A stretch of DNA of 64,000 bases, from contig CACIPQ010000001.1 in the NCBI GenBank assembly GCA_902588585.1, positions 62,001 to 126,000 of the forward strand. The letters run 5' to 3'. Each line of letters starts with the position of its first letter. The first letter of the stretch is position 1. A program made the translations under genes and the position numbers. Source of the DNA: an uncultured Pelagibacteraceae bacterium (GTDB lineage: Bacteria > Pseudomonadota > Alphaproteobacteria > Pelagibacterales > Pelagibacteraceae). The notes under the pieces are model-generated. The model ran no database searches and was not told the DNA's origin. It saw only the letters and a list, made by a program, of their open reading frames with translations. Below, one piece after another: positions 2,233-46,860 of the stretch.

Positions 2233-2241
2233 AATTATTAG

Positions 2242-2356
2242 CCTGGCAACGACCTACTCTCCCATATCTTAAGATAAAGTACCATCGGCGCTGAAGGGCT
2301 TGACTTCCGAGTTCGGAATGGGATCGGGTATGACCCCTTCGCAATAATCACCAGGC
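2242..2356 (-). rRNA. rrf: 5S ribosomal RNA
   Basis: On the minus strand the gene opens CCTGGTGATTATTGCG and closes CGTTGCCAGG, which pair as the terminal helix. Inside are the highly conserved CCGATCCCATTCCGAACTCG and the GCGCCGATGGTA region of bacterial 5S. The length is about 115 nt. No 16S or 23S gene is adjacent: the upstream side is a tRNA and then the glycan island. Confidence 0.96.
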
Positions 2357-2361
2357 AACGA

Positions 2362-2390
2362 TTTATAATATTTTTATTTAGGATTGTAAA
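2362..2390 (-). promoter_or_regulatory. Sigma-70-type promoter directly before 5S rRNA
   Basis: On the minus strand TTTACA (2385-2390) and TATAAA (2362-2367) are separated by exactly 17 nt, close to the sigma-70 consensus. A start about 7 nt after the -10 would fall near 2355, the mature 5' end of 5S. The spacing and position are seen directly; activity is inferred. AT-rich DNA produces such boxes by chance, but the placement against a detached 5S gene makes this one credible. Confidence 0.6.
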
Positions 2391-2420
2391 TAGCTGAAAA
2401 ATAGCTTTGAGGAAGGATTT

Positions 2421-2495
2421 TGGTGGGCGTGATAAGAATCGAACTTATGACCTCTACGATGTCAACGTAGCGTTCTACCATTGAACTACACGCCC
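2421..2495 (-). tRNA. tRNA-Val (anticodon GAC)
   Basis: The minus-strand sequence folds as a tRNA. The acceptor is GGGCGTG/CACGCCC. The D arm is GTTC...GAAC. The anticodon stem is CTACG/CGTAG with loop TTGACAT (anticodon GAC, valine). The T arm is ATAAG-TTCGATT-CTTAT. The 3' CCA is encoded in the DNA. It lies 11 nt after the stop codon of the last island gene and about 65 nt before 5S, so it marks the edge of the variable island. Confidence 0.95.
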
Positions 2496-5255: not shown

Positions 5256-5822
5256 TTAATTTGGAGGATATTCAGTTTTACCTATTATTAAATCTACTAA
5301 AGATAATAGAAGTATTTGATGGACATTCTCTATATGATTATAAGCTTTACTATCAACCCAAAAGTTAATGTCTCCAAGTTTTTTTAATTTGTTGCTCTCA
5401 TCATTCCCAGTAAACGTAATAATTTTTTTAATTTTTTTCTTCCTTGCCTCTTTTGCTGCATTAATCATATTTGGAGAATTGCCCCCTGCAGAAATTAATA
5501 TTAAAGAATCTCCTTCATCAGAATAAAAATTTATTGCTTGCTCAACCCATCTCTCATAACCAAAATCATTAGAAAAGCAGGTAATTAAGTCTGATTCATT
5601 ATAATTGGTACATCTAACTTTGGCATTTTTAGTTAAATCTACACTGAAGTGACTTGCTATCGCTGCACTTCCACCGTTGCCAAATATCATTGTTTTTTTT
5701 CCTTGTGAGTGGGTTTCTTTTAAAATTTCTTTAACTTTCACAAGATCTTCCAGGTACTTTTCGTTGCTCAACAATTCATTTAGACTACTAAAATATTTTT
5801 TTAAGAATTTTATATCTGACAT
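5256..5822 (-). CDS. SIS-domain phosphosugar isomerase (GmhA-like)
   Basis: A 188-aa sugar isomerase (SIS) protein resembling GmhA/DiaA. GmhA converts sedoheptulose 7-phosphate to D-glycero-manno-heptose 7-phosphate. FGNGGSAAIASHFSVDLTK (about 47-65) is the characteristic phosphosugar-binding segment, and ISAGGNSPNM follows later. The length is usual for GmhA. The next gene upstream (5825) carries a nucleotidyltransferase domain 3 nt away, and a PfkB-nucleotidyltransferase fusion lies at 61497, so heptose-type activation is possible. I cannot separate GmhA from other SIS isomerases by eye. Confidence 0.75.
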   Translation of the reverse strand: MSDIKFLKKYFSSLNELLSNEKYLEDLVKVKEILKETHSQGKKTMIFGNGGSAAIASHFSVDLTKNAKVRCTNYNESDLITCFSNDFGYERWVEQAINFYSDEGDSLILISAGGNSPNMINAAKEARKKKIKKIITFTGNDESNKLKKLGDINFWVDSKAYNHIENVHQILLLSLVDLIIGKTEYPPN

Positions 5823-5824
5823 TA

Positions 5825-6604
5825 TTATTTTAACTTACCTTCCTTTCTCATTTTGTCCCTTATTTTTGTTGCGGAAATTTCTTGAATTTCCTTCGGTAAA
5901 GCGACTTCTTCAATCTTATAACCTACACCCCTACCATAACAGATATTGGTTATATTAGGCACCAAAGAAATTTTAATACGATTTTTAAAGTCCTTTAGAG
6001 CATTTTCTATATTATTTTTAACTGTCTCAAAGTCAAAGGGATTGTCACCAACTCCTTTCACATCTCTAACCATAATATTTACTTGTCCTGTTTTTTTAAT
6101 TATTTCTTCAAACAAAGCTTGGTGGCCATCGTGCCATGGCTGCCATCTACCTAACATTTGAGCCGTTGGTTTTCTATTGTCCCATTTATAAGGGATTATT
6201 TGATCTGCTATTTTTATTGACCAAATTTCAGAATTTTTTTCTGTTACTCTTGAATCATATTTTTCAGGTTTAACAAAAATTTTATTTGTATCCTCAAATC
6301 TACCTTTTTCGATTGTATCTACCCAAATGATAAAATCCGGGTTAAATAACTCTCTTGCTTTTGGAGTGGGACAAACAAAATCTGCTACAACATCAAAACC
6401 ATCTTGTTTAAATTTTTCAGCTTTTTCAGCCATTCTCTTTGCTTGTCTTTTTCTGCCTTCATCAGAAAAATCCCAATCATTCGCTTCTTTTCTTACCTCG
6501 TCAGCATTAAGCCATTTTGCTTTTAAAAGTGGTACCAATTTAGATGCAAGCGTAGTTTTGCCAGCACCGGGCAAACCCATTATTAATATTTTCTTTTTTT
6601 TCAC
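5825..6604 (-). CDS. APS kinase-like P-loop kinase fused to a nucleotidyltransferase
   Basis: A 259-aa two-domain protein. Residues 1 to about 140 resemble adenylylsulfate kinase (CysC), with P-loop GLPGAGKTT at 10-18 and the LNADEVRKEANDWDFSDEGR region. From about 145 a cytidylyltransferase-like domain begins, with HDGH at 158-161 (HxGH motif) and ISATKIR at 243-249 (ISxTxxR motif). The start codon is GTG at 6604; the next in-frame Met (residue 9) would remove the first beta strand, so GTG is preferred. A kinase plus nucleotide transfer suggests making an activated small-molecule substituent or sugar. The substrate is unknown. Confidence 0.7.
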   Translation of the reverse strand: MKKKKILIMGLPGAGKTTLASKLVPLLKAKWLNADEVRKEANDWDFSDEGRKRQAKRMAEKAEKFKQDGFDVVADFVCPTPKARELFNPDFIIWVDTIEKGRFEDTNKIFVKPEKYDSRVTEKNSEIWSIKIADQIIPYKWDNRKPTAQMLGRWQPWHDGHQALFEEIIKKTGQVNIMVRDVKGVGDNPFDFETVKNNIENALKDFKNRIKISLVPNITNICYGRGVGYKIEEVALPKEIQEISATKIRDKMRKEGKLK

Positions 6605-6668: not shown

Positions 6669-7163
6669 CTAAGAAACCTTAGAACTACTAACTAATTTAG
6701 TTTTATATAAATGGTATGCTGATTCTATAAGTAAAGAAAATAAAAATGTGGACAATAGACTAGATGCGAAGAATGGAATTGCTAAAGTATAACAAGTTAC
6801 AAGGCCCGCTACACTGTATCCATAAGCTCCAGTTGACCAAACTCCAAAATTAGTCACGACAAAAAATATAACTGCACCGGTCAGCGCACCTGGTATTCTT
6901 AGTTTAATACTATTTTTAAAGAAAATAGGAAGAAAACCGATTAAAAAAACGCTACCCCAAGTCCAGTGGGTTAAACTATGATAACCAATAAAAAAGTCTG
7001 TTATGGCAAAAGAAAGTATTAACAAAGGTATATATCTTAAACCAAGAATAGCTGGCACATAAAAACTCAAAGCTAATAAACTAGTAAAATTCCATGGATG
7101 AGGAATAAATCTACTTGCCGCTAAGGCAACAAAAATACCTACAAATATTTTTAAATAGTTCAT
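6669..7163 (-). CDS. DUF6580-like small membrane protein, candidate B12 inner-membrane transport component
   Basis: A hydrophobic protein of about 164 aa with five to six predicted membrane helices. RFIPHPWNFT near residues 18-27 resembles the signature of DUF6580 proteins. Size and layout recall the S (substrate-binding) components of ECF transporters. The frame opens at a TTG at 7199, but ATG at 7163 (MNYLKIF) or 7169 is a more natural start. It lies just downstream of the BtuB-like receptor and its cobalamin riboswitch, so I infer a role in cobalamin uptake. It has a single cysteine (about residue 124, in VTCYT) within a helix. No ECF ATPase or BtuCDF is in the window. Function is not proven. 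Confidence 0.6.
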   Translation of the reverse strand: MNYLKIFVGIFVALAASRFIPHPWNFTSLLALSFYVPAILGLRYIPLLILSFAITDFFIGYHSLTHWTWGSVFLIGFLPIFFKNSIKLRIPGALTGAVIFFVVTNFGVWSTGAYGYSVAGLVTCYTLAIPFFASSLLSTFLFSLLIESAYHLYKTKLVSSSKVS

Positions 7164-7202
7164 AATCATGATTTTATGTAATAGAATAGAAAAAAACAAG
7201 TT

Positions 7203-9089
7203 TTAATATTTTCTACTAACTCCAAATTCAACTTCTCTACCCTCCTGTGCATATCCATGTGGACGTTGGTAAGATTCGTCAAATAAGTTATTGATATTAA
7301 AAGACCATTGGTAATTTTGAGATTTTTTTAACAGAGATATATCTGCCATATCCGTTGAATCCATAAGTATTGTCGTATAATTGGAGTTGTGTGTATCCCA
7401 GTGTTTTCCGTAGTGTTGATATTTAGCACGAAATTTAATAGGACCAAGGTAATTGGTAGAAACATCCTTTTCATATCTAAGGCCGTAAGTTTTTTCTGGC
7501 CTTCTTAATTGATCTGCTCCATTTGTCTTTTTGCTAGAGAGCGAAGTGCTGAAAAAAGATAACTTTTGACTTTCTCCTTGCCAATCTATACTCGATTCTA
7601 TACCTGACTGATTTAAATCAGTTTTGGTTGCATCATTAACATACTGATTATTTTTGTACTCAACATGATTGAATATGTTTGATTTAAATGCTGTAAGAGA
7701 AACTGAAAGGTTTTCAAAAATTTTATATTCTCCAAAAATTTCATTTGATTCACTTTTCTCTGGATCTAAATTTAAATTCCCAGAATATCCATAATTATCT
7801 GTTCCATGTAGTTCGTATAATGATGGATTTCTCAAACCTGTTGAATGCGTGAGACCAAATTTAAACTTATCAATAAGCTGTGTAATATTTATTTTTCGGG
7901 TATTATTTAAACCAGTAGTTTTATGTTCATCTGATCTTCCGTAAAGAGCTATCGTTGTATTTTCGAAAGGTTTAAATCCTATATTAGAAAAAACACTTGT
8001 ATTATTAACATTGCCTTTTGTAGAAGCAGAATATGATCCTCTGTTTTGGAATTCACCCCAGTCGTGTTTGAACTCTCCTCCAAGACCAAAAGAAAAGTTG
8101 TTGCCAAATTGCATCTTTCTTTCGGCTCTGGCTACAAGAGCATTGCTCAAATATTCATCGATAACTCCAGCTTCATCGTATTCTCTATCATACTGATGAA
8201 AGTGAAAAGTTACATAATCCTTCAAATCTTTTTGGTGGCGATCAAAACCAAATTGTGCAGCATACATTAAATTATCACCTTCATATCCATTTTCTGCAGT
8301 AGAAGAACTGTCGTACTCTGCAATTGTTTGTCTGCCATATACTGTTGATCTAAATTTAATATTATCACTTAACCACTTCTCGGCATTAAAATTTCCACTG
8401 AAATTTTTTACTTTATCAGATTCTAAACCGTCTTGGATTGCGCTGTCGGTCTCACTATCGACTAAACCACCTTTAAAATTAACGATCCAATCATCATTTG
8501 TTATCTTTGTATAGTTTCCACTGACAGTTTTGTTCTTGTTATTTTTTCCACTAATTTCAAAACTATTTTTGAAATCTCCGGCTGTAATAAAATTCACAGC
8601 CCCACCTATTGCGCTCGGCCCAAAATGTGCACCATTTGGTCCAATATACACTTCGACTTGATGTATGGTCTGTACAAAATCTACACCAAAATCATGTAGG
8701 CCTTGTGTTGTGGATTGGTCATTGATCGGAATACCATTTAGTAAAACAAGTGTATGATTTGAGTTTGTGCCTCTGGCAAAAATAGATGTCTGCTGCCCTT
8801 TTGGTCCTGATTGAGTTACATTTAAACCAGGTATCATTTCTAATACTTCGTTTATATCATTGGCACCATACTCTTTAATTTCTCTTGAAGTAATAATATG
8901 ACTTTTTAAACCATTTTTTGAGAATTCAGATGTATTTGGAACATCTTTTATTATTTTAATACAAGGTATGTCACTTTTGTTATCCCACTCACATTTAATT
9001 GAATTTTTTGCCGTCTCTACAGAAAATGCTTTATTAAAAAATAAAAGCATAATTATAGTAAAAAAAGATATTTTTAAATTTTTTCGCAT
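7203..9089 (-). CDS. btuB: TonB-dependent outer-membrane receptor, BtuB-like
   Basis: A 628-aa outer-membrane active transporter, probably for cobalamin. A signal peptide covers about residues 1-23 (positive N-terminus, hydrophobic core, then KAFS/VETA). The plug domain spans about 55-170, with EVLEMIPGLNV, FARGTNSNHTLVLLNGIPIND and IGPNGAHFGPSAIGGAVNF. The rest is a beta-barrel ending in Tyr, as barrel proteins usually end in an aromatic residue. The length matches BtuB. AGGAG at 9096-9100 is a good ribosome binding site 6 nt before the ATG. A cobalamin riboswitch lies upstream, which is the main evidence for the ligand. TonB/ExbBD are not in the window. Confidence 0.87.
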   Translation of the reverse strand: MRKNLKISFFTIIMLLFFNKAFSVETAKNSIKCEWDNKSDIPCIKIIKDVPNTSEFSKNGLKSHIITSREIKEYGANDINEVLEMIPGLNVTQSGPKGQQTSIFARGTNSNHTLVLLNGIPINDQSTTQGLHDFGVDFVQTIHQVEVYIGPNGAHFGPSAIGGAVNFITAGDFKNSFEISGKNNKNKTVSGNYTKITNDDWIVNFKGGLVDSETDSAIQDGLESDKVKNFSGNFNAEKWLSDNIKFRSTVYGRQTIAEYDSSSTAENGYEGDNLMYAAQFGFDRHQKDLKDYVTFHFHQYDREYDEAGVIDEYLSNALVARAERKMQFGNNFSFGLGGEFKHDWGEFQNRGSYSASTKGNVNNTSVFSNIGFKPFENTTIALYGRSDEHKTTGLNNTRKINITQLIDKFKFGLTHSTGLRNPSLYELHGTDNYGYSGNLNLDPEKSESNEIFGEYKIFENLSVSLTAFKSNIFNHVEYKNNQYVNDATKTDLNQSGIESSIDWQGESQKLSFFSTSLSSKKTNGADQLRRPEKTYGLRYEKDVSTNYLGPIKFRAKYQHYGKHWDTHNSNYTTILMDSTDMADISLLKKSQNYQWSFNINNLFDESYQRPHGYAQEGREVEFGVSRKY

Positions 9090-9095
9090 GTGGCT

Positions 9096-9121
9096 CTCCT
9101 ATTTTAAAGTTTTAACTTTAA
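9096..9121 (-). promoter_or_regulatory. Ribosome binding site and hairpin before btuB
   Basis: AGGAG (9096-9100) lies 6 nt before the btuB ATG and is one of the clearer Shine-Dalgarno sequences in the window. Just upstream, 9104-9110 and 9115-9121 form a 7-bp A/T stem with a TTTA loop. The hairpin may be part of how the riboswitch controls access to the ribosome binding site, but this is inference, and an all A/T stem is weak. Confidence 0.5.
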
Positions 9122-9149
9122 CATTTATTGCCACTGCTAATTTTAAATT

Positions 9150-9275
9150 GTAGAACTAGACTTTTCCTGGCCATCATTCAACAGCGGACTATACTGGGTG
9201 GCGCTCCGACTTTAACGGTTGCAGGAACAGCAAGTGAATTTCACACTTATTTCCCACCAAGCTTTTCAGTACATT
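9150..9275 (-). promoter_or_regulatory. Cobalamin riboswitch (class II-like)
   Basis: On the minus strand, TACTG (9267-9271) and CAGTA (9192-9196) form the closing helix P1. Between them are AAAAGC, GGTGGGAAA, GTGTGAAATTCAC, the B12-box-like CTGTTCCTGCAACCGTTAAA (9211-9230), GTCGGAG and CGCCACCC. These are the conserved parts of cobalamin aptamers in the right order. The lack of the longer P1/P2 region recalls the short marine env8 (hydroxo/methylcobalamin) type. About 40 nt after P1 would hold the kissing-loop hairpin. It lies about 60 nt upstream of btuB, so B12 should reduce receptor synthesis, probably at translation. Confidence 0.9.
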
Positions 9276-9307: not shown

Positions 9308-10927
9308 TTAAAGATCATCCTGATTTCTCTGATCTTTTAACTTGTCTCCAGGTAAAGGGACATCGATACAATAAGGATTTTCAACTGTTTTAAAATCTAC
9401 TGCTCCATGTGGATCAGCATCAGGCTTGGGCATATATCTTTCAAGATATTCTGCTTTTAAATTTTTATATAATTTATTTCCCTCCTCATCATTTTTTTCA
9501 GCTCTTTCTATTTCTTTCCATCTGTTTTTTGGGAATTTTACATACAATGCAAAACATTTCTTGATTTCTTCTATTTCATGAGGCGGGTATTGTGGCATAT
9601 TTAATTGACTTTCGGCTGTTAAACATTTTGTTATTGTTTCTGGTTTTATAAGGCCCAAATCTTCACACATTTTTCTAAGTGGAGTACCGTGAAATGGAAC
9701 AAAGGCATATATATTTGCATTGTCAGCATCGATATGCCTGTTCAGTTCTATTGTATCAAAAGCTAATTTTTTTGTCTCAGTGGGAAAACCTGTAATATTA
9801 TTAACACTAAAAGAAATATTATATTTTTTAGGAATTTTTAATTTTTCCAATATATCTTTATTTTTCCACCTTCTATCTAAAATTTTTTTTCTAAACTCCT
9901 CATTTCCATGCTCTACTCCAAAAGAAATTCTATGTAGACCTACTTTTTTTAGTTTTTTCATATTATCATCATTAACGGTCTCTGGTCTTGTTTGCATCCA
10001 AAATGGCAAGCGAATATCTGAATACATTTCGCAAAACTCATCGAGCTCATTATTGCTCATACCAAGAAAAGTATCGGCCCAAAAATAGTTGTATTCAACT
10101 TTATGAACATCTTTAAAATATTTTAATTCTTTGTAAACTAAATCCATTTTCTTTTTTCTATAAAAGTTTGTACCTAAGCCTTTATAAAGTTTCATTTGAT
10201 CAGGAGAATTGCAAAATCTGCACGTAAAAGGGCAGCCCCTTATTGTTTCAACAGGTAACATTTTATAAACTTTACCTGACATAGGTCTATAAAGTCTTTG
10301 TTCTTCGAAAAGTGAAATATCTAATAAAGGGTTTTCGTTTATATTTACAGGTTTTGAAATTGAGTTTTTTTTAACTACTTTGCCATCAACTTTTACCCAT
10401 AAGTTTGTAACGTCTGTGTAATCCTGTTTTTTTTCAATTCTATCACACAGATCTATTAATGCATTTTCTCCCTCACCTACACATACTAAATCTACCAATT
10501 CTTCTTTGATGCAAATTTCTGGAGCAAAAGTTGCAAAAACACCTCCGGCAATTACAGGAATTTTATTTTTTTTCTTATAATCTTTCATTTCATTTAATAC
10601 TTTAATTCCAAGTTCCCACATGTCTTCTGTTGATGAAATGGCAATTAGGTTAGGTTTGAATTCTTTAATTTGTTTTTGTAAATCAGCTTTCCAATCTGAA
10701 TTTTTTAAACGTATACCTTTTTCTTCCATTTTATAAGGAACGACATTTAATCTTTCCATTTTGCTTCCGTCTGAGTCAATACCGTAATCAAGGGAATAAT
10801 ATGTGGTATCAAATATTTGGGACTTATGACCATTTTTTTTGAGGATAGCAGAAAACATTGCTATTGCTGGCGGCAGCATATTCATGCCGTAAGTGTTCGG
10901 ATAAATAAATAATACTTTAATTCCCAT
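9308..10927 (-). CDS. B12-binding domain radical SAM protein
   Basis: A 539-aa protein with an N-terminal cobalamin-binding Rossmann-like domain (about 1-160; LIAISSTEDMWELG, VIAGGVFATFAPE) and a radical SAM domain with CPFTCRFC (Cys232, 236, 239) that would bind a 4Fe-4S cluster. The base-off DxHxxG histidine motif is absent, as is common in this class. GEGENAL near 151 is also typical. Such enzymes often methylate or rearrange unactivated carbons. The gene overlaps the upstream 605-aa gene by 11 nt and lies next to the B12 uptake cassette. The substrate is unknown; the glycan context suggests a sugar or its substituent. Confidence 0.82.
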   Translation of the reverse strand: MGIKVLFIYPNTYGMNMLPPAIAMFSAILKKNGHKSQIFDTTYYSLDYGIDSDGSKMERLNVVPYKMEEKGIRLKNSDWKADLQKQIKEFKPNLIAISSTEDMWELGIKVLNEMKDYKKKNKIPVIAGGVFATFAPEICIKEELVDLVCVGEGENALIDLCDRIEKKQDYTDVTNLWVKVDGKVVKKNSISKPVNINENPLLDISLFEEQRLYRPMSGKVYKMLPVETIRGCPFTCRFCNSPDQMKLYKGLGTNFYRKKKMDLVYKELKYFKDVHKVEYNYFWADTFLGMSNNELDEFCEMYSDIRLPFWMQTRPETVNDDNMKKLKKVGLHRISFGVEHGNEEFRKKILDRRWKNKDILEKLKIPKKYNISFSVNNITGFPTETKKLAFDTIELNRHIDADNANIYAFVPFHGTPLRKMCEDLGLIKPETITKCLTAESQLNMPQYPPHEIEEIKKCFALYVKFPKNRWKEIERAEKNDEEGNKLYKNLKAEYLERYMPKPDADPHGAVDFKTVENPYCIDVPLPGDKLKDQRNQDDL

Positions 10928-19887: not shown

Positions 19888-21966
19888 TTAATAGCTATAT
19901 TTTTCAATAGCATTATTGAAAGCTGCCATCTGTGACATTTTAATTTTGGGTTCTTCGCCATTTTCTAAAATAATTTTTCTCTTTAATCTTGATAAATACA
20001 TTCTTTTTAAACTTGTGTAATTATACTTGTCCTCTTTTTTAAGATTGAATCCAAAACTTTTCCATAGTTCATCTTCTTTTTGTTTGGAATACTTTGTCTC
20101 AATGAAATGATAATTGGTTTTAACTTTATAATCAGACAATTTTTTAGTTTTGTAATTATTTTTCCAACTAATAATATCATAATCAAAGGATTTAGTAAGT
20201 TTATAAGTATTTTCGCCTTTATTTTTTCTTTCAAAATATATTGTTTCAAGAAAATCTTTCAGATTAATAACTTCTTTTTTTATCTCACCACTTTCCGGTA
20301 TTATTTGCAGCAAGCTATTTGTTATCCATTTCATCATATCTCTAAAATTTTCAATCCAAAGTTTTTGAGAATATCTCAAAAGATCTCCTCCCTTGACACC
20401 TAAAATATAATCATCCTTGTTTTTTCCTACATATTTAAATACCTCTTCTTCTTTATCAAAATTTTCAGTTTTTAAAGTGTGTATGTACTCCTCCAAAGCA
20501 GATTGAATTTTTAAAGGTGCTTTTTTCAAATTATCAAACATGTGCATAGTCAATTTGCTTCTGTTAATTTTTTTAGAGTCTAAATAATAAAAAATTTCAC
20601 TAATTGGTTCTTCTCTTAGCATCGCATCTAAGATGACAACATATTTCCTTGCTAAAAAAACATCATTTTCATTCATGGTTTCAGTGGCATAAATATTGCA
20701 CTCTGTTTCACAAACCAAATCTCCATTTACATAGCCCACAAGATTTTGATTTTGTCTATATTTTTTTATTAATCCAAATTTTTTGCTAGCATACTCTTTG
20801 TTCATATCTGTATTGCTTAATAGCAAGGTAGGATGAACAGTAAATCTTATAGGTGCTTTTGTATCTAACAATTCATTTAATCCTTTAATAAAACTTTTTA
20901 AAGTTTCGTTGGGTAGAGGCAAGATAATGTCTGGTTCTGAAATAGTTTCCATATTTTTAATATAATCCTGAAGGTTATGTAGATTAGTTCTTTTTATAGT
21001 TTTAAGAACATCGTTATCAAGAGATTGAACTGCGTTTGTAATTCTCAATGCACCATCTAAGATTTCTGCAGTTTTTATAATTCTGGGAAGCTGGCTTTTT
21101 CCGGTACTACAATGGATATACATTGGCCATTTGTATTTATCTTTTAATTTTTTTATATGGTAAGAAATTTCTACATCTTGTTGATACATTCCCCAGTTTG
21201 AATCAGCTATATGTAGGCCAACTGGTGGGTTTATTCTTTCAGCAATATATGAAAGTTCTTTTTTAACATATTCGACTGAATGAAAATGTATTTTATTATA
21301 GTAAGATAATCCCTCGTGACAAAAACTGCATTTATATGGACATCCTCTATTAGTTTGAATCAGAGGTTGAAATGTCCCTTCCTTTAAAAAATCATCAAAG
21401 AGCCCATCAAGATAAGGGGACACAGTCTGATCAAGATGTTTTACTCTAGTTATTTCTGGACTAGATATAAATTTATTTTTTTCATCAATAAAAAAGCAGT
21501 TCCCAAGCTCATCAATTTTTTCCCTAACTTTTTTAATGTCCTTGCCCTTCTCAAGCCATTTTTGAATAAGTTGACAGAATGCTAGTTCGCCCTCTCTTTC
21601 AATGAGCATATCTGCGTGCTTATATTTTTTTACAAAATTTTTAATATCTACGGGATCCTTGTTAATTTCAGGACCTCCATAAACAACTAAGGTTTTAGGA
21701 TTTTTTTTCTTTACGTAATTTGAAATTTTGTTTGATAAATTTGTGTTCCATAAATAGTTGCAAATACCAAAAACATCAATCTCATGTTTGTCTATATACT
21801 TTATTATATCATCGCTTTTTTTTAAAATTTTAACATTCACGTTGGGAATATTGGATTTTATATAACTTCCAATTAATCCAACGGCTAATGGAATAATATT
21901 ATTTGACACTCCTGAAGAAGAGTAGCAAGGATCGCATAGAAGAATTCTTAAATTATCTTTTTTCAT
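19888..21966 (-). CDS. B12-binding radical SAM protein with long C-terminal extension
   Basis: A 692-aa enzyme. The N-terminal domain is cobalamin-binding-like (IIPLAVGLIGSYIK; DVFGICNYLWNT; LVVYGGPEIN; LIEREGEL). The radical SAM domain carries GCPYKCSFC (Cys209, 213, 216). About 250 further residues follow with no recognised motif. It resembles the 671-aa product at 44845 along its whole length (same PLxxG start, same YGGP/FGGP segment, similar tail around KINRSKL), so the two are paralogs. It faces the only plus-strand gene across a 61-nt divergent spacer. The substrate is unknown. Confidence 0.8.
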   Translation of the reverse strand: MKKDNLRILLCDPCYSSSGVSNNIIPLAVGLIGSYIKSNIPNVNVKILKKSDDIIKYIDKHEIDVFGICNYLWNTNLSNKISNYVKKKNPKTLVVYGGPEINKDPVDIKNFVKKYKHADMLIEREGELAFCQLIQKWLEKGKDIKKVREKIDELGNCFFIDEKNKFISSPEITRVKHLDQTVSPYLDGLFDDFLKEGTFQPLIQTNRGCPYKCSFCHEGLSYYNKIHFHSVEYVKKELSYIAERINPPVGLHIADSNWGMYQQDVEISYHIKKLKDKYKWPMYIHCSTGKSQLPRIIKTAEILDGALRITNAVQSLDNDVLKTIKRTNLHNLQDYIKNMETISEPDIILPLPNETLKSFIKGLNELLDTKAPIRFTVHPTLLLSNTDMNKEYASKKFGLIKKYRQNQNLVGYVNGDLVCETECNIYATETMNENDVFLARKYVVILDAMLREEPISEIFYYLDSKKINRSKLTMHMFDNLKKAPLKIQSALEEYIHTLKTENFDKEEEVFKYVGKNKDDYILGVKGGDLLRYSQKLWIENFRDMMKWITNSLLQIIPESGEIKKEVINLKDFLETIYFERKNKGENTYKLTKSFDYDIISWKNNYKTKKLSDYKVKTNYHFIETKYSKQKEDELWKSFGFNLKKEDKYNYTSLKRMYLSRLKRKIILENGEEPKIKMSQMAAFNNAIEKYSY

Positions 21967-28321: not shown

Positions 28322-29827
28322 TTATTGTAAAAAGTTTTCAACTATAGGAACACCGGCGTTTTTGTCTAAATTCTTTTGAATGCTGCCTTTTCTATTAACT
28401 ATTTGATATACCATTCTTCGACAGTATTCTAAAACTTCTCTGCTTACTTTGGTGTTTATTAAAGTAGGCAAGGCAGACTTCATATCTTCATATGTAAGAT
28501 TTTTTGGTAGATATCCATTTTTTTGAGCAAAATCATAAAGTTCTGTTCCAGGATATGGCTGTATAATATAGAAGGCTGCAACATTTAAACCTGCTTCAAC
28601 CATTTTTCTAGCAAATAAAAAAGTTTTTGTTAGCTCTTCATAGCTTTCGTCAGGGTAACCTATTGTAAAGAAACCTGATACTTTCAGTCCTCTTTTAACA
28701 GATTGTTGTACAAGCTCTACCATGTCGTGATCTTTGTGGTTCCATTTACCTGTTGCGTAAAAATCTAATATTCTCTGAACTCCAGATTCAAATGGATACG
28801 CTATTTCGACCCAACCCACTTCTTTCATTAAATCTAAAAGTTCAACATCGACATCAAGTTTTTTGGTTTCTTTATTTCTAGTAAAAAAGTGAGCAAGATT
28901 TACTCCGTTAACGTCAACAATTTTAAGTTTTTTTGTTTTTAAATTATTAAATATAGTTTTAATTCTCTTTTTCTTGGCTAATAGACTATCGTCCTCAAAG
29001 AATAAATATTCTGCCCCTAAACTTATAATTTTATCAATTTCCTTATCAACTCTTTCTATACTTTTTAATCTAAGCTTTTTAGCTTCTCCTTCTTTTGAGA
29101 TATGACAGTAGCTACAATTAAACGGACAACCCCTAGAAGTTTGCATTGACAAATAACGTACCTCTTGACCTTTTTTAAATGTTCCGCCATGTGGCTCCCC
29201 AATTTTCCACAATTTTTTTAAAGGCAAAAGATCCCAGGCTGGCATTGGAAGTTTATCTAAATCAAACTCAACTGGTCTTTCTGGATTTACTATATATTTA
29301 TCCCCATCTTTAAAAGCTAAATTTTTAATCTTTTTATAATCTAAGCCTTTCTCAATACTTTCAACAAATTCGAGAACTGCATTCTCTGCTTCACCAAAAA
29401 CAACAACATCAAAACCGTTATTTAAAAAATCTTTATATAATGCTCTTGCATTTCCGCCTCCCGCAAACAATATTTTTTCAGGGTATTTTTTTTTTATCGC
29501 TTGGGCTACCTCAAAACAATTAAATGTTTGTGGTGTAAAAATAGAGCCAACTCCTATTAATTTGTGTTTCTCTATTTTTGTTAGCATGTGATCGATAGAC
29601 ATACCTACTCTAATATGCTTTTCATCAATCTTTGTTCTTCTGTAGAAAGTTTCTTTTAAGTCATCTGTTTCATCTCCTACAAGCATGTCTAAAATTGAGA
29701 CATCAAAATTATTGTCACGCAACTTTCCTGCAAGATATAAAATTCCTAGTGAACTATCTGGTCTGGGATTTTCAGTAAGTTCGAACTGTTGAGCTGGATA
29801 AATTAATTTTACTTTAGTATTTTTCAT
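28322..29827 (-). CDS. B12-binding domain radical SAM protein
   Basis: A 501-aa protein. The N-terminal cobalamin-binding region includes SLGILYLAGKL, IGVGSIFTPQTFN and LFAGGGNARAL, ending in VFGEAENAVLEFV. The radical SAM core has GCPFNCSYC (Cys234, 238, 241), then IDKIISLGAEYLFFEDDS and SGFFTIGYPDES. It shares the overall domain plan of the 9308 product more than the two large paralogs. Its start overlaps the stop of the amidohydrolase gene by 4 nt, so the two are coupled and may act in sequence. The substrate is unknown. Confidence 0.82.
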   Translation of the reverse strand: MKNTKVKLIYPAQQFELTENPRPDSSLGILYLAGKLRDNNFDVSILDMLVGDETDDLKETFYRRTKIDEKHIRVGMSIDHMLTKIEKHKLIGVGSIFTPQTFNCFEVAQAIKKKYPEKILFAGGGNARALYKDFLNNGFDVVVFGEAENAVLEFVESIEKGLDYKKIKNLAFKDGDKYIVNPERPVEFDLDKLPMPAWDLLPLKKLWKIGEPHGGTFKKGQEVRYLSMQTSRGCPFNCSYCHISKEGEAKKLRLKSIERVDKEIDKIISLGAEYLFFEDDSLLAKKKRIKTIFNNLKTKKLKIVDVNGVNLAHFFTRNKETKKLDVDVELLDLMKEVGWVEIAYPFESGVQRILDFYATGKWNHKDHDMVELVQQSVKRGLKVSGFFTIGYPDESYEELTKTFLFARKMVEAGLNVAAFYIIQPYPGTELYDFAQKNGYLPKNLTYEDMKSALPTLINTKVSREVLEYCRRMVYQIVNRKGSIQKNLDKNAGVPIVENFLQ

Positions 29828-44844: not shown

Positions 44845-46860
44845 TTATTCTACAGATAAATATAGACGATCCATGTTTGCTCTTAGAAGAATTCTTCCTA
44901 ATCCAATAAGATCTGTTCCATATTGATTTTCATACGTCTTAATAAGTCCAACTTGTTCTTTTGTATGGCTCAAGTTGGTTTCAACTCCATTAGGATTGTA
45001 AACATCAAAGGGGTTTATTTGGAAATGACTTTCAATTATTTTTCCAAAATCAAAATGAAAAGTTTTTTTCTGCTTATTAGAAACATCTAAACAATTGTTT
45101 TTTCTAAGAATACTAAAATCAAATAGTTCGCTTAAATAAGTTCCCACTTTTTCATCTAACAAATTATTTTCTTTTAATAAGAATTTAGCTGCTTCATAAG
45201 CAATTTCGTGTAATTCTTTTATATGGCGAAAAACTGCAATCGCTCTATATTTGTAAAGCTCGTTTGTACCATACTCTCCATCTATGTATTTCTTGATAAC
45301 ACCTTTTTGTTTAGTGAACTTCTCTAATGGTTTGGGGTCAGTCGCTAAATTTTTCTTTTCTTCTGCGTTAAATTCCTCATAAAACTTACTAAACACAGGA
45401 TGAAGCAGGCTTATTTCATGAATTTTTTCAATTAATTCTGAACGTTTAATATTATTCATTCTTAAAAAACTCATTAAATCGGCAAGTATCGAGTCGTTGT
45501 TAAATATCTCGACCGTTAAATCGAATTTTCTACAAGCCTGATAATCTTCATATGGCATAGTTTTATTTGCAACACATATTTCTTCTATTTCTGCCACAGG
45601 AAATTTTGTTCCTCTAAAAGTGTATTCTCCAAAACATCTAGGCAAAACTCTGTATCTGCAAATATACTCCCATTTTTTTCTAGATTCATTTGTTGTTGAT
45701 TTTGTTCCTGGCAACATCATGAATTGATACAATCTTATAAATTTCATATCAGCGTCCAACATATCTTTAACAGTTTTAAAATGTTTTTCCTTCGTGTCTC
45801 CTTCTAAGCAGAGAATAATTTCAGCTTCACTTTGGCCGCCTTCTTTCTCAATGCTTTTAGAAAAATTTACTAAAACCTCCTGAGAAACATTTTTTCTTTT
45901 AATTTCGCTCAAGACTGTTTTATCGGTAGACTGTACCGCTGCTGTAGCTGGCAAAGTTGGACCTAAAATTTTAACAATTTCAACAGTTCTTTCTTTTCCT
46001 GTTTTTGCAGTTGCCGCTAATACAGTTGCGGGATAACCTGCGTGCTTTTCTTGACATTTTTTTATTGATTTTGCTGTCTCAATATCTTTTGGAAACATTC
46101 CAAAGTTAGCATCTGTAATTTGTAAATCTCTAGTTTTGGCTCGCTTTGCTATATATTCTAATTCTTCCACTATTCTGTCTTGGGGGTATCGAGGAGTTTT
46201 GGTAAAATATGATCCTCCCTCCCAACAGAATGTACAAGTAAATGGACAGCCTCTTGTTGATTGCATCATAGGAATTAAAGTGTCATCAAAAAATTTATCC
46301 ATCATTCCTGACAAATAAGGTGATGGTAATGTTTCTAGATGCATAAATTTTTCACCTAAAGGACATGTAATTAGCTCATCTCCATCTAAGTATCTAATAT
46401 TGTGAACTAAAGGTTTGTTTTTTAAAAATTTTTCTTTATCAAAATTTATTTTTTTTAATTCATTGTAGAGTTCTACAAACGATTTTTCACCTTCATACTC
46501 TAAATAAAAATCAATTGCAGGATACTCTTTCAAAAAGTCTTTTTGTTGATCTGGTTTGTCTGGAAAGTTTGGGCCACCAAATACTGTGATTGTTTTTGGT
46601 GAAAGCTCTTTAATTCTCTTGGCATATTCATGGCCCAGTTTAATATTCCAAGAAAAATTTGAAAAACAAGCTAGCTGAGGAAGCTCCTTATCAAGATAAT
46701 TGCTGAAATCTTCTGGATACTTAAAAATTTCACAATCAATTTGATCTTTCAGATGAGTTTTTGCATAAGTAGCTACATATGCAATACCCAATGGTATGGT
46801 ATTTGCCGCAACTATTTGGCCTGTATGCGTTAAATCTGCAAATGTTATTTTTGTTCCCAT
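44845..46860 (-). CDS. B12-binding radical SAM protein with long C-terminal extension
   Basis: A 671-aa enzyme. The N-terminal cobalamin-binding-like region has NTIPLGIAYVATYAK, LACFSNFSWNIKLGHEYA and TVFGGPNFPD, with LEYEGEKSFVEL later. The radical SAM motif is GCPFTCTFC (Cys205, 209, 212). The remaining residues after the barrel, from about 430, have no known motif (NNIKRSELIEKIHEI). It is a full-length paralog of the 19888 product. It is followed by a 61-nt gap before the methyltransferase start side. No substrate can be named. Confidence 0.82.
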   Translation of the reverse strand: MGTKITFADLTHTGQIVAANTIPLGIAYVATYAKTHLKDQIDCEIFKYPEDFSNYLDKELPQLACFSNFSWNIKLGHEYAKRIKELSPKTITVFGGPNFPDKPDQQKDFLKEYPAIDFYLEYEGEKSFVELYNELKKINFDKEKFLKNKPLVHNIRYLDGDELITCPLGEKFMHLETLPSPYLSGMMDKFFDDTLIPMMQSTRGCPFTCTFCWEGGSYFTKTPRYPQDRIVEELEYIAKRAKTRDLQITDANFGMFPKDIETAKSIKKCQEKHAGYPATVLAATAKTGKERTVEIVKILGPTLPATAAVQSTDKTVLSEIKRKNVSQEVLVNFSKSIEKEGGQSEAEIILCLEGDTKEKHFKTVKDMLDADMKFIRLYQFMMLPGTKSTTNESRKKWEYICRYRVLPRCFGEYTFRGTKFPVAEIEEICVANKTMPYEDYQACRKFDLTVEIFNNDSILADLMSFLRMNNIKRSELIEKIHEISLLHPVFSKFYEEFNAEEKKNLATDPKPLEKFTKQKGVIKKYIDGEYGTNELYKYRAIAVFRHIKELHEIAYEAAKFLLKENNLLDEKVGTYLSELFDFSILRKNNCLDVSNKQKKTFHFDFGKIIESHFQINPFDVYNPNGVETNLSHTKEQVGLIKTYENQYGTDLIGLGRILLRANMDRLYLSVE

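Follow-up and report, generated by a model that had tools for sequence, protein, structure and literature searches.

Organization of the cassette and its island

The window analyzed here, a stretch of 64,000 nucleotides from the genome of an uncultured Pelagibacteraceae (SAR11) bacterium, contains a compact cassette made up of a cobalamin (vitamin B12) riboswitch, a gene for a BtuB-like outer-membrane receptor and a gene for a membrane protein of the DUF6580 family, all on the minus strand. An earlier note, made from the sequence alone, had described these parts as one unit at 6669–9275 and had counted four radical S-adenosylmethionine (SAM) proteins with B12-binding domains in the surrounding island. 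Profile matches confirmed all three parts of the unit, the riboswitch by a match to Rfam model RF01689, and both PF04055 and PF02310 scored above the Pfam cut-offs (32.1 bits for PF02310) in four of four radical SAM proteins. The genome, which comprises 992 kb in 15 contigs and is 87% complete, encodes five PF02310 proteins, all of them radical SAM proteins; the fifth, of subfamily E, is on another contig (C13; L100:4132-5685). The coordinates of the features are listed in Table 1.

The island is an rRNA-flanked SAR11 variable region carrying surface-glycan genes. The cassette sits close to one of its ends, and the opposite border, a 16S rRNA gene, lies outside the window. In relatives, the cassette is found at one or the other edge of the same rRNA-flanked region, and in G001 and G007 approximately 27 nt separate the DUF6580 stop codon from a 23S rRNA match.

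Table 1 Features of the cassette and its island in the window
Feature	Position	Strand	Evidence
5S rRNA and tRNA-Val, island edge	2241-2495	-	Rfam, ARAGORN
DUF6580 membrane protein, proposed inner-membrane importer (solitary S component for cobalamin)	6669-7169	-	PF20221 92.8 bits (cut-off 27)
BtuB-like outer-membrane receptor, 628 amino acids, type I N-terminus (CEWDN...PC)	7203-9089	-	PF07715 (Plug) 72.6 bits
Regulatory domain, P13-like helix and L13 loop, downstream of aptamer	9125-9190	-	Loop complementarity
Cobalamin riboswitch aptamer, class Cbl-II (AdoCbl-II, RF01689)	9191-9272	-	99.1 bits, E 2.4e-24, complete model (1-81)
B12-binding radical SAM protein A, directly upstream of cassette	9308-10927	-	PF02310 43.3 bits, PF04055 73.5 bits
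B12-binding radical SAM protein B, KedN5-like	19888-21966	-	PF02310 33.0 bits; NF033712 170 bits, under cut-off
B12-binding radical SAM protein C	28322-29827	-	PF02310 47.4 bits
B12-binding radical SAM protein D, TokK/CysS relative	44845-46860	-	PF02310 36.9 bits; TokK and CysS matches

Association of the cassette with B12-binding radical SAM genes

The distribution of the cassette was examined in a panel of 197 genomes of the order, approximately 144 from the same family and 53 from the sister family, a split that may err by one or two genomes. Cassette genomes were defined as the union of RF01689, DUF6580 and Plug-domain matches in the family, which gave 18 genomes. DUF6580 was found in 16 family genomes, and the Plug domain, one per genome, in exactly the cassette genomes except G028, in which the receptor is cut by a contig end. 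PF02310 matches of at least 28 bits occurred in 22 family genomes, 16 of which have the cassette; matches of around 20 bits in open reading frames of 360 to 371 amino acids were counted as noise. The cassette was thus not equally frequent in genomes without B12-binding radical SAM proteins, the outcome that the earlier note had named as damaging to its proposal: such proteins were present in 16 of 18 genomes with the cassette versus 6 of 126 without it (16/2/6/120; Fisher test with kinship ignored, p = 1.5e-14). The association persisted when the Pfam cut-off was applied to PF02310 (15/3/6/120, p = 4.5e-13). Five of the exceptions (G052, G080, G096, G185, and G191) have only subfamily E proteins, 66 to 78% identical to the C13 protein of the window's own genome; with E-only genomes set aside, the table became 16/2/1/125 (p = 3.7e-18). 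Among the ten single-contig genomes, two had both features and eight had neither (p = 0.02).

The two kinds of genes were also physically linked. A B12-binding radical SAM gene lies upstream of the cassette on the same strand in the window and in G186, and downstream on the same strand in G078, G115, G136, and G114 (the last on a 3-kb contig only); it is convergent to the cassette in G190 and G103 and divergent in G179. Some of these runs are nearly contiguous: in G099 the genes for radical SAM protein, BtuB and DUF6580 are codirectional with a gap of approximately 5 nt behind the upstream radical SAM gene, in G136 the order BtuB–DUF6580–radical SAM is codirectional with short gaps, and in G114 only 7 nt separate DUF6580 from the radical SAM gene. 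The adjoining radical SAM proteins belong to groups A, C-like and D, the C-like ones being approximately 22 to 29% identical to protein C of the window.

A separate GTDB scan with the DUF6580 profile, which shares some genomes with the panel, yielded 40 Pelagibacteraceae loci and 40 loci from other taxa. BtuB adjoins DUF6580 in most loci of both sets. A B12-binding radical SAM gene was located within 6 kb in 26 of the 40 Pelagibacteraceae loci, and as the adjacent gene in 21, versus none of the 40 loci from SAR116, SAR86, Omnitrophota, Bacteroidota and others. The gene density of the window (four such genes in 59) gives a chance adjacency of approximately 13% per cassette, an approximate expectation because island gene content varies among genomes, and 21 of 40 then corresponds to p ~3e-9.

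Search for other B12-dependent enzymes

The usual reason for a BtuB receptor gene with a riboswitch is a housekeeping B12 enzyme, such as methionine synthase, class II ribonucleotide reductase, QueG or a mutase, and the position of the cassette in the island would then be accidental. The sister family fits this explanation, since its cassettes occur alongside mutases (two methylmalonyl-CoA-mutase-type proteins in G002), NrdJ (6/6 genomes), QueG (5/6) and adenosyltransferase (8/10), with MetH absent. In the family of the window, however, none of these enzymes was detected: MetH was found in 0 of 197 genomes of the order, NrdJ above its cut-off and QueG each in 0 of 34 family genomes, including all cassette genomes, and adenosyltransferases of the BtuR and PduO types (PF01923 and PF02572) in 0 of 44 family genomes. 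The ribonucleotide reductase matches of the family scored under the class II cut-off, and in the window's own genome the reductase gene is followed by that of a class I small subunit. Queries with MetE, QueG and BtuC against this genome gave no match, and, as stated above, its PF02310 matches are radical SAM proteins throughout. SAR11 bacteria have also been described as lacking MetE, MetH and MtgBCDE (PMC12478193). We therefore consider service to a housekeeping enzyme most improbable.

Riboswitch class and regulatory domain

The aptamer scored far above the RF01689 gathering score of 36.5 bits and is the sole RF01689 element in the genome. Downstream of it, the loop L13 of a P13-like helix (CAGGAA) is complementary to the aptamer loop L5 (UUCCUG), forming a putative L5–L13 kissing arrangement. 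Across 14 sequences, this pairing was complementary in 96% of cells, and sliding the partners reduced the complementarity of the whole structure from 91% to 25 to 55% of cells; covariation in the L5–L13 pairing showed no excess over shuffles in the same 14 sequences. The element resembles the env8 Cbl-II riboswitch (4FRG and 4FRN) in its full-model aptamer, its L5–L13 complementarity and its position before a B12 receptor gene. In env8, however, the ribosome-binding site is located in the P13 loop (PMC10907184), whereas in the window the start codon follows the P13-like loop at a distance of approximately 70 nt, and the ribosome-binding site of the receptor gene lies near 9095, approximately 70 nt past the loop. 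The coupling to translation must therefore differ from that in env8. By analogy with the env8–hydroxocobalamin structures (PMC10907184), we infer that the element senses a non-adenosyl cobalamin. Cobalamin would repress the cassette genes through it.

RF01689 matches above the cut-off occurred in 14 of the 197 genomes, every one from Pelagibacteraceae, and every switch found at a Pelagibacteraceae cassette was of this class. By contrast, an RF00174 riboswitch precedes BtuB–DUF6580 in seven of seven sister-family loci tested, and two SAR116 loci close to the same DUF6580 lineage also have RF00174. These results suggest that the switch class follows the B12 economy of the host and not the DUF6580 tree.

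Two further observations concern this region. Approximately 60 nt past the Rfam aptamer (9125-9190) are strongly conserved (CCAGGAAAAGTCTAGTTCT), exceeding the needs of a simple kissing loop. A GUGGC/GCCAC hairpin just ahead of the BtuB start was considered as the switch and rejected; it is present in the window and is not kept in relatives.

BtuB-like receptor

The receptor is the only Plug-domain protein of the genome. Among NCBIfam models, TIGR01779 (B12 receptor) gave the highest score, 156 bits over residues 64 to 624. This is well short of the equivalog cut-off (599.7), which makes BtuB-like the apt name. It thus shares with BtuB the Plug domain and a top family match over nearly the full length, but differs in this low score, in its CxWxN...PC N-terminus and in occurring in an order sample in which TonB was not recognized. 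A corrinoid would be its likely ligand.

Receptors at these loci have two unrelated types of N-terminus: a CxWxN...PC motif marks type I, to which the window's receptor belongs (also L101, L105, L111, and L113-L117), and a strand resembling a TonB box, for example, PIIVIAP, marks type II (L102, L104, and L112). Type I was seen in Pelagibacteraceae only, and its motif probably forms a disulfide. Such diversity would also be expected if the receptor were a variable surface protein, for example, one exposed to phages, that diversifies in the island and imports B12 with a merely coincidental link to the radical SAM genes; the hypervariable region, in which the cassette often lies at an edge beside 23S or 5S rRNA, agrees with this. 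That explanation accounts neither for the absence of the receptor from genomes without B12-binding radical SAM proteins nor for the conserved riboswitch control and the paired DUF6580 gene, and we judge it very unlikely.

In G099, G136, and G147, which gave no RF01689 match, the BtuB gene lies within approximately 5 nt of, or overlaps, a same-strand gene upstream.

DUF6580 as a putative cobalamin importer

For the DUF6580 protein, an ATG start at 7169 is likelier than a TTG at 7199. Its AlphaFold2 model (mean predicted local distance difference test score 92.6) gave structural matches of which the best 21 were all S components of energy-coupling factor (ECF) transporters, including the related CbiM-type subunits, with Z values of 9.2 to 13.7; the first unrelated match had a Z value of 8.7. 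BtuM with hydroxycobalamin was among them (Z 13.6, 3.1 Å over 155 residues). Foldseek E-values for the model were not significant, and helical folds readily give middling Z values; the assignment is made because the structural matches are consistent and separated by a clear margin, and on this basis the model is confidently predicted to have the S-component fold. EcfT (PF02361) was found in 0 of 40 genomes, as expected for a solitary S component. The likeness to BtuM (8ovv and 8c7p) thus comprises a superposable fold, the missing EcfT and the vitamin context, but DUF6580 shows no detectable sequence similarity to BtuM, and no sequence-level link to any solved structure was detected. Taken with its genetic setting, the predicted fold indicates that DUF6580 (PF20221) is probably a cobalamin importer, a function for a family of unknown function; the literature searched contained no mention of DUF6580.

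BtuM binds cobalt through a cysteine. His23, His63, and Cys125 of DUF6580 are near-invariant and, by analogy, are candidates that might take the role of this residue.

In a tree of DUF6580, Pelagibacteraceae proteins formed at least two separate lineages, of which one lies close to SAR116 and another (G110 and G154) near the sister family. Because the family thus gained DUF6580 two or more times, the pairing of the cassette with radical SAM genes was probably put together more than once. G110 holds two DUF6580 copies, which group with that of G154 near the sister family.

Radical SAM proteins of the island

Protein D matched TokK (E 3.3e-37 over residues 61 to 469) and CysS (E 1.8e-31), with both the B12-binding and the radical SAM domains spanned, and proteins B and D scored 170 to 175 bits against NF033712 (KedN5 subfamily; cut-off 700). 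Protein D, and protein B by family profile, therefore share both domains with TokK, CysS and KedN5 but fall under the NF033712 cut-off and belong to surface-glycan islands instead of antibiotic clusters. For the model of protein A, AprD4 ranked first (Z 26.6), level with MgmA, which is a cobalamin enzyme (Z 25.6); the model also matched cobalamin-bound OxsB, TsrM and TokK. AprD4 is a sugar dehydratase that is not known to use cobalamin. The N-terminal domains, which the earlier note described as apparent B12-binding domains, would thus be expected to bind cobalamin in protein D, a TokK/CysS relative, whereas the model of protein A fits OxsB, TsrM and TokK and AprD4 equally. Overall, cobalamin use is well supported for protein D; it is plausible for proteins B and C and undecided for protein A, where the case comes mainly from adjacency to the cassette.

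The best solved relative of subfamily E is likewise AprD4, and its members (among them L183-L186 and L188) adjoined no cassette in the loci sampled. By analogy, subfamily E is possibly cobalamin independent, like AprD4, though a B12-binding-fold domain is present. These two resemblances to AprD4, together with the occurrence of subfamily E in genomes without the cassette, would fit an explanation in which the radical SAM proteins in general are AprD4-like sugar dehydratases working without cobalamin and the association is a by-product of a shared, recombining island. The genome-wide association, an adjacency beyond the island's own gene density, the near-contiguous same-strand runs and the relationship of protein D to TokK and CysS in both domains argue against it, and we regard it as distinctly unlikely.

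Proposed function of the cassette

Together, these results make it very probable that the island cassette imports cobalamin for glycan-modifying radical SAM enzymes and is repressed by cobalamin. The proposal of the earlier note that the island brings its own cofactor supply for these enzymes draws its support from the comparative tests, namely, co-occurrence and adjacency. In the proposed mechanism, the BtuB-like receptor would carry a corrinoid over the outer membrane, and DUF6580, with its BtuM-like solitary S-component fold, would carry it over the inner membrane. The cobalamin imported would probably be hydroxo- or methylcobalamin, because members of the known adenosyltransferase families were not detected. 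With enough cobalamin in the cell, the Cbl-II riboswitch would shut down both genes. The island's cobalamin-dependent radical SAM enzymes would use the cofactor, probably methylating or otherwise modifying surface-sugar building blocks.

Several observations weigh against this reading. G189 (89% complete) has a strong B12-binding radical SAM protein and no detected cassette, and two cassette genomes lack a clear one (in G028 there is a fragment with no Pfam hit, and in G154 a PF02310 match of 17.6 bits). The Fisher tests ignore phylogeny, and the panel includes many incomplete genomes. No RF01689 match was obtained in three of the cassette genomes (G099, G136, and G147). It is possible that a B12 enzyme was missed in the window's own genome, given its 87% completeness and the few queries used. 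Protein A resembles AprD4 no less than it resembles cobalamin enzymes. Finally, TonB (PF03544) was found in 0 of 54 panel genomes, among which BtuB-like receptors do occur. The window's genome encodes one TolQ, one TolR and one TolA-like protein (C1:41886-45704), with no TonB among them; TolQRA may drive uptake through the receptor, or the profile may have missed a strongly divergent TonB.

A broader form of the proposed cobalamin-import function, to which we give even chances, is that the cassette is a self-contained, horizontally shuffled B12-import module combining a receptor without classical TonB and a new BtuM-like family, DUF6580. It would serve B12 solely to surface glycans in an otherwise B12-free lineage, and its RF01689 switch, in place of RF00174, would track the missing adenosylcobalamin metabolism.

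The component parts are of known kinds; what is new is their arrangement, a portable cofactor supply in a surface-glycan island of a lineage without other detected B12 use. SAR11 bacteria are some of the ocean's most numerous cells. They have been described as B12 auxotrophs, and the B12 regulation of their btuB has been named an unknown (PMC9296465). The present finding bears on that regulation and offers a subset of SAR11 a specific use of B12, namely, surface-glycan enzymes with a traveling cofactor supply. It would predict which SAR11 strains react to B12 and poses the question of how a BtuB-like receptor functions where TonB is not recognized.

Neighboring genes

Open reading frames of 1702, 1851 and 1973 amino acids beside some cassettes were set aside as probable read-through of masked (N) rRNA. 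After the cassette, the region 5256-6604 encodes an isomerase resembling GmhA and a second protein, one half of which is adenylylsulfate-kinase-like and the other nicotinamide-mononucleotide-adenylyltransferase-like; GmhA likewise comes after the cassette in G186.

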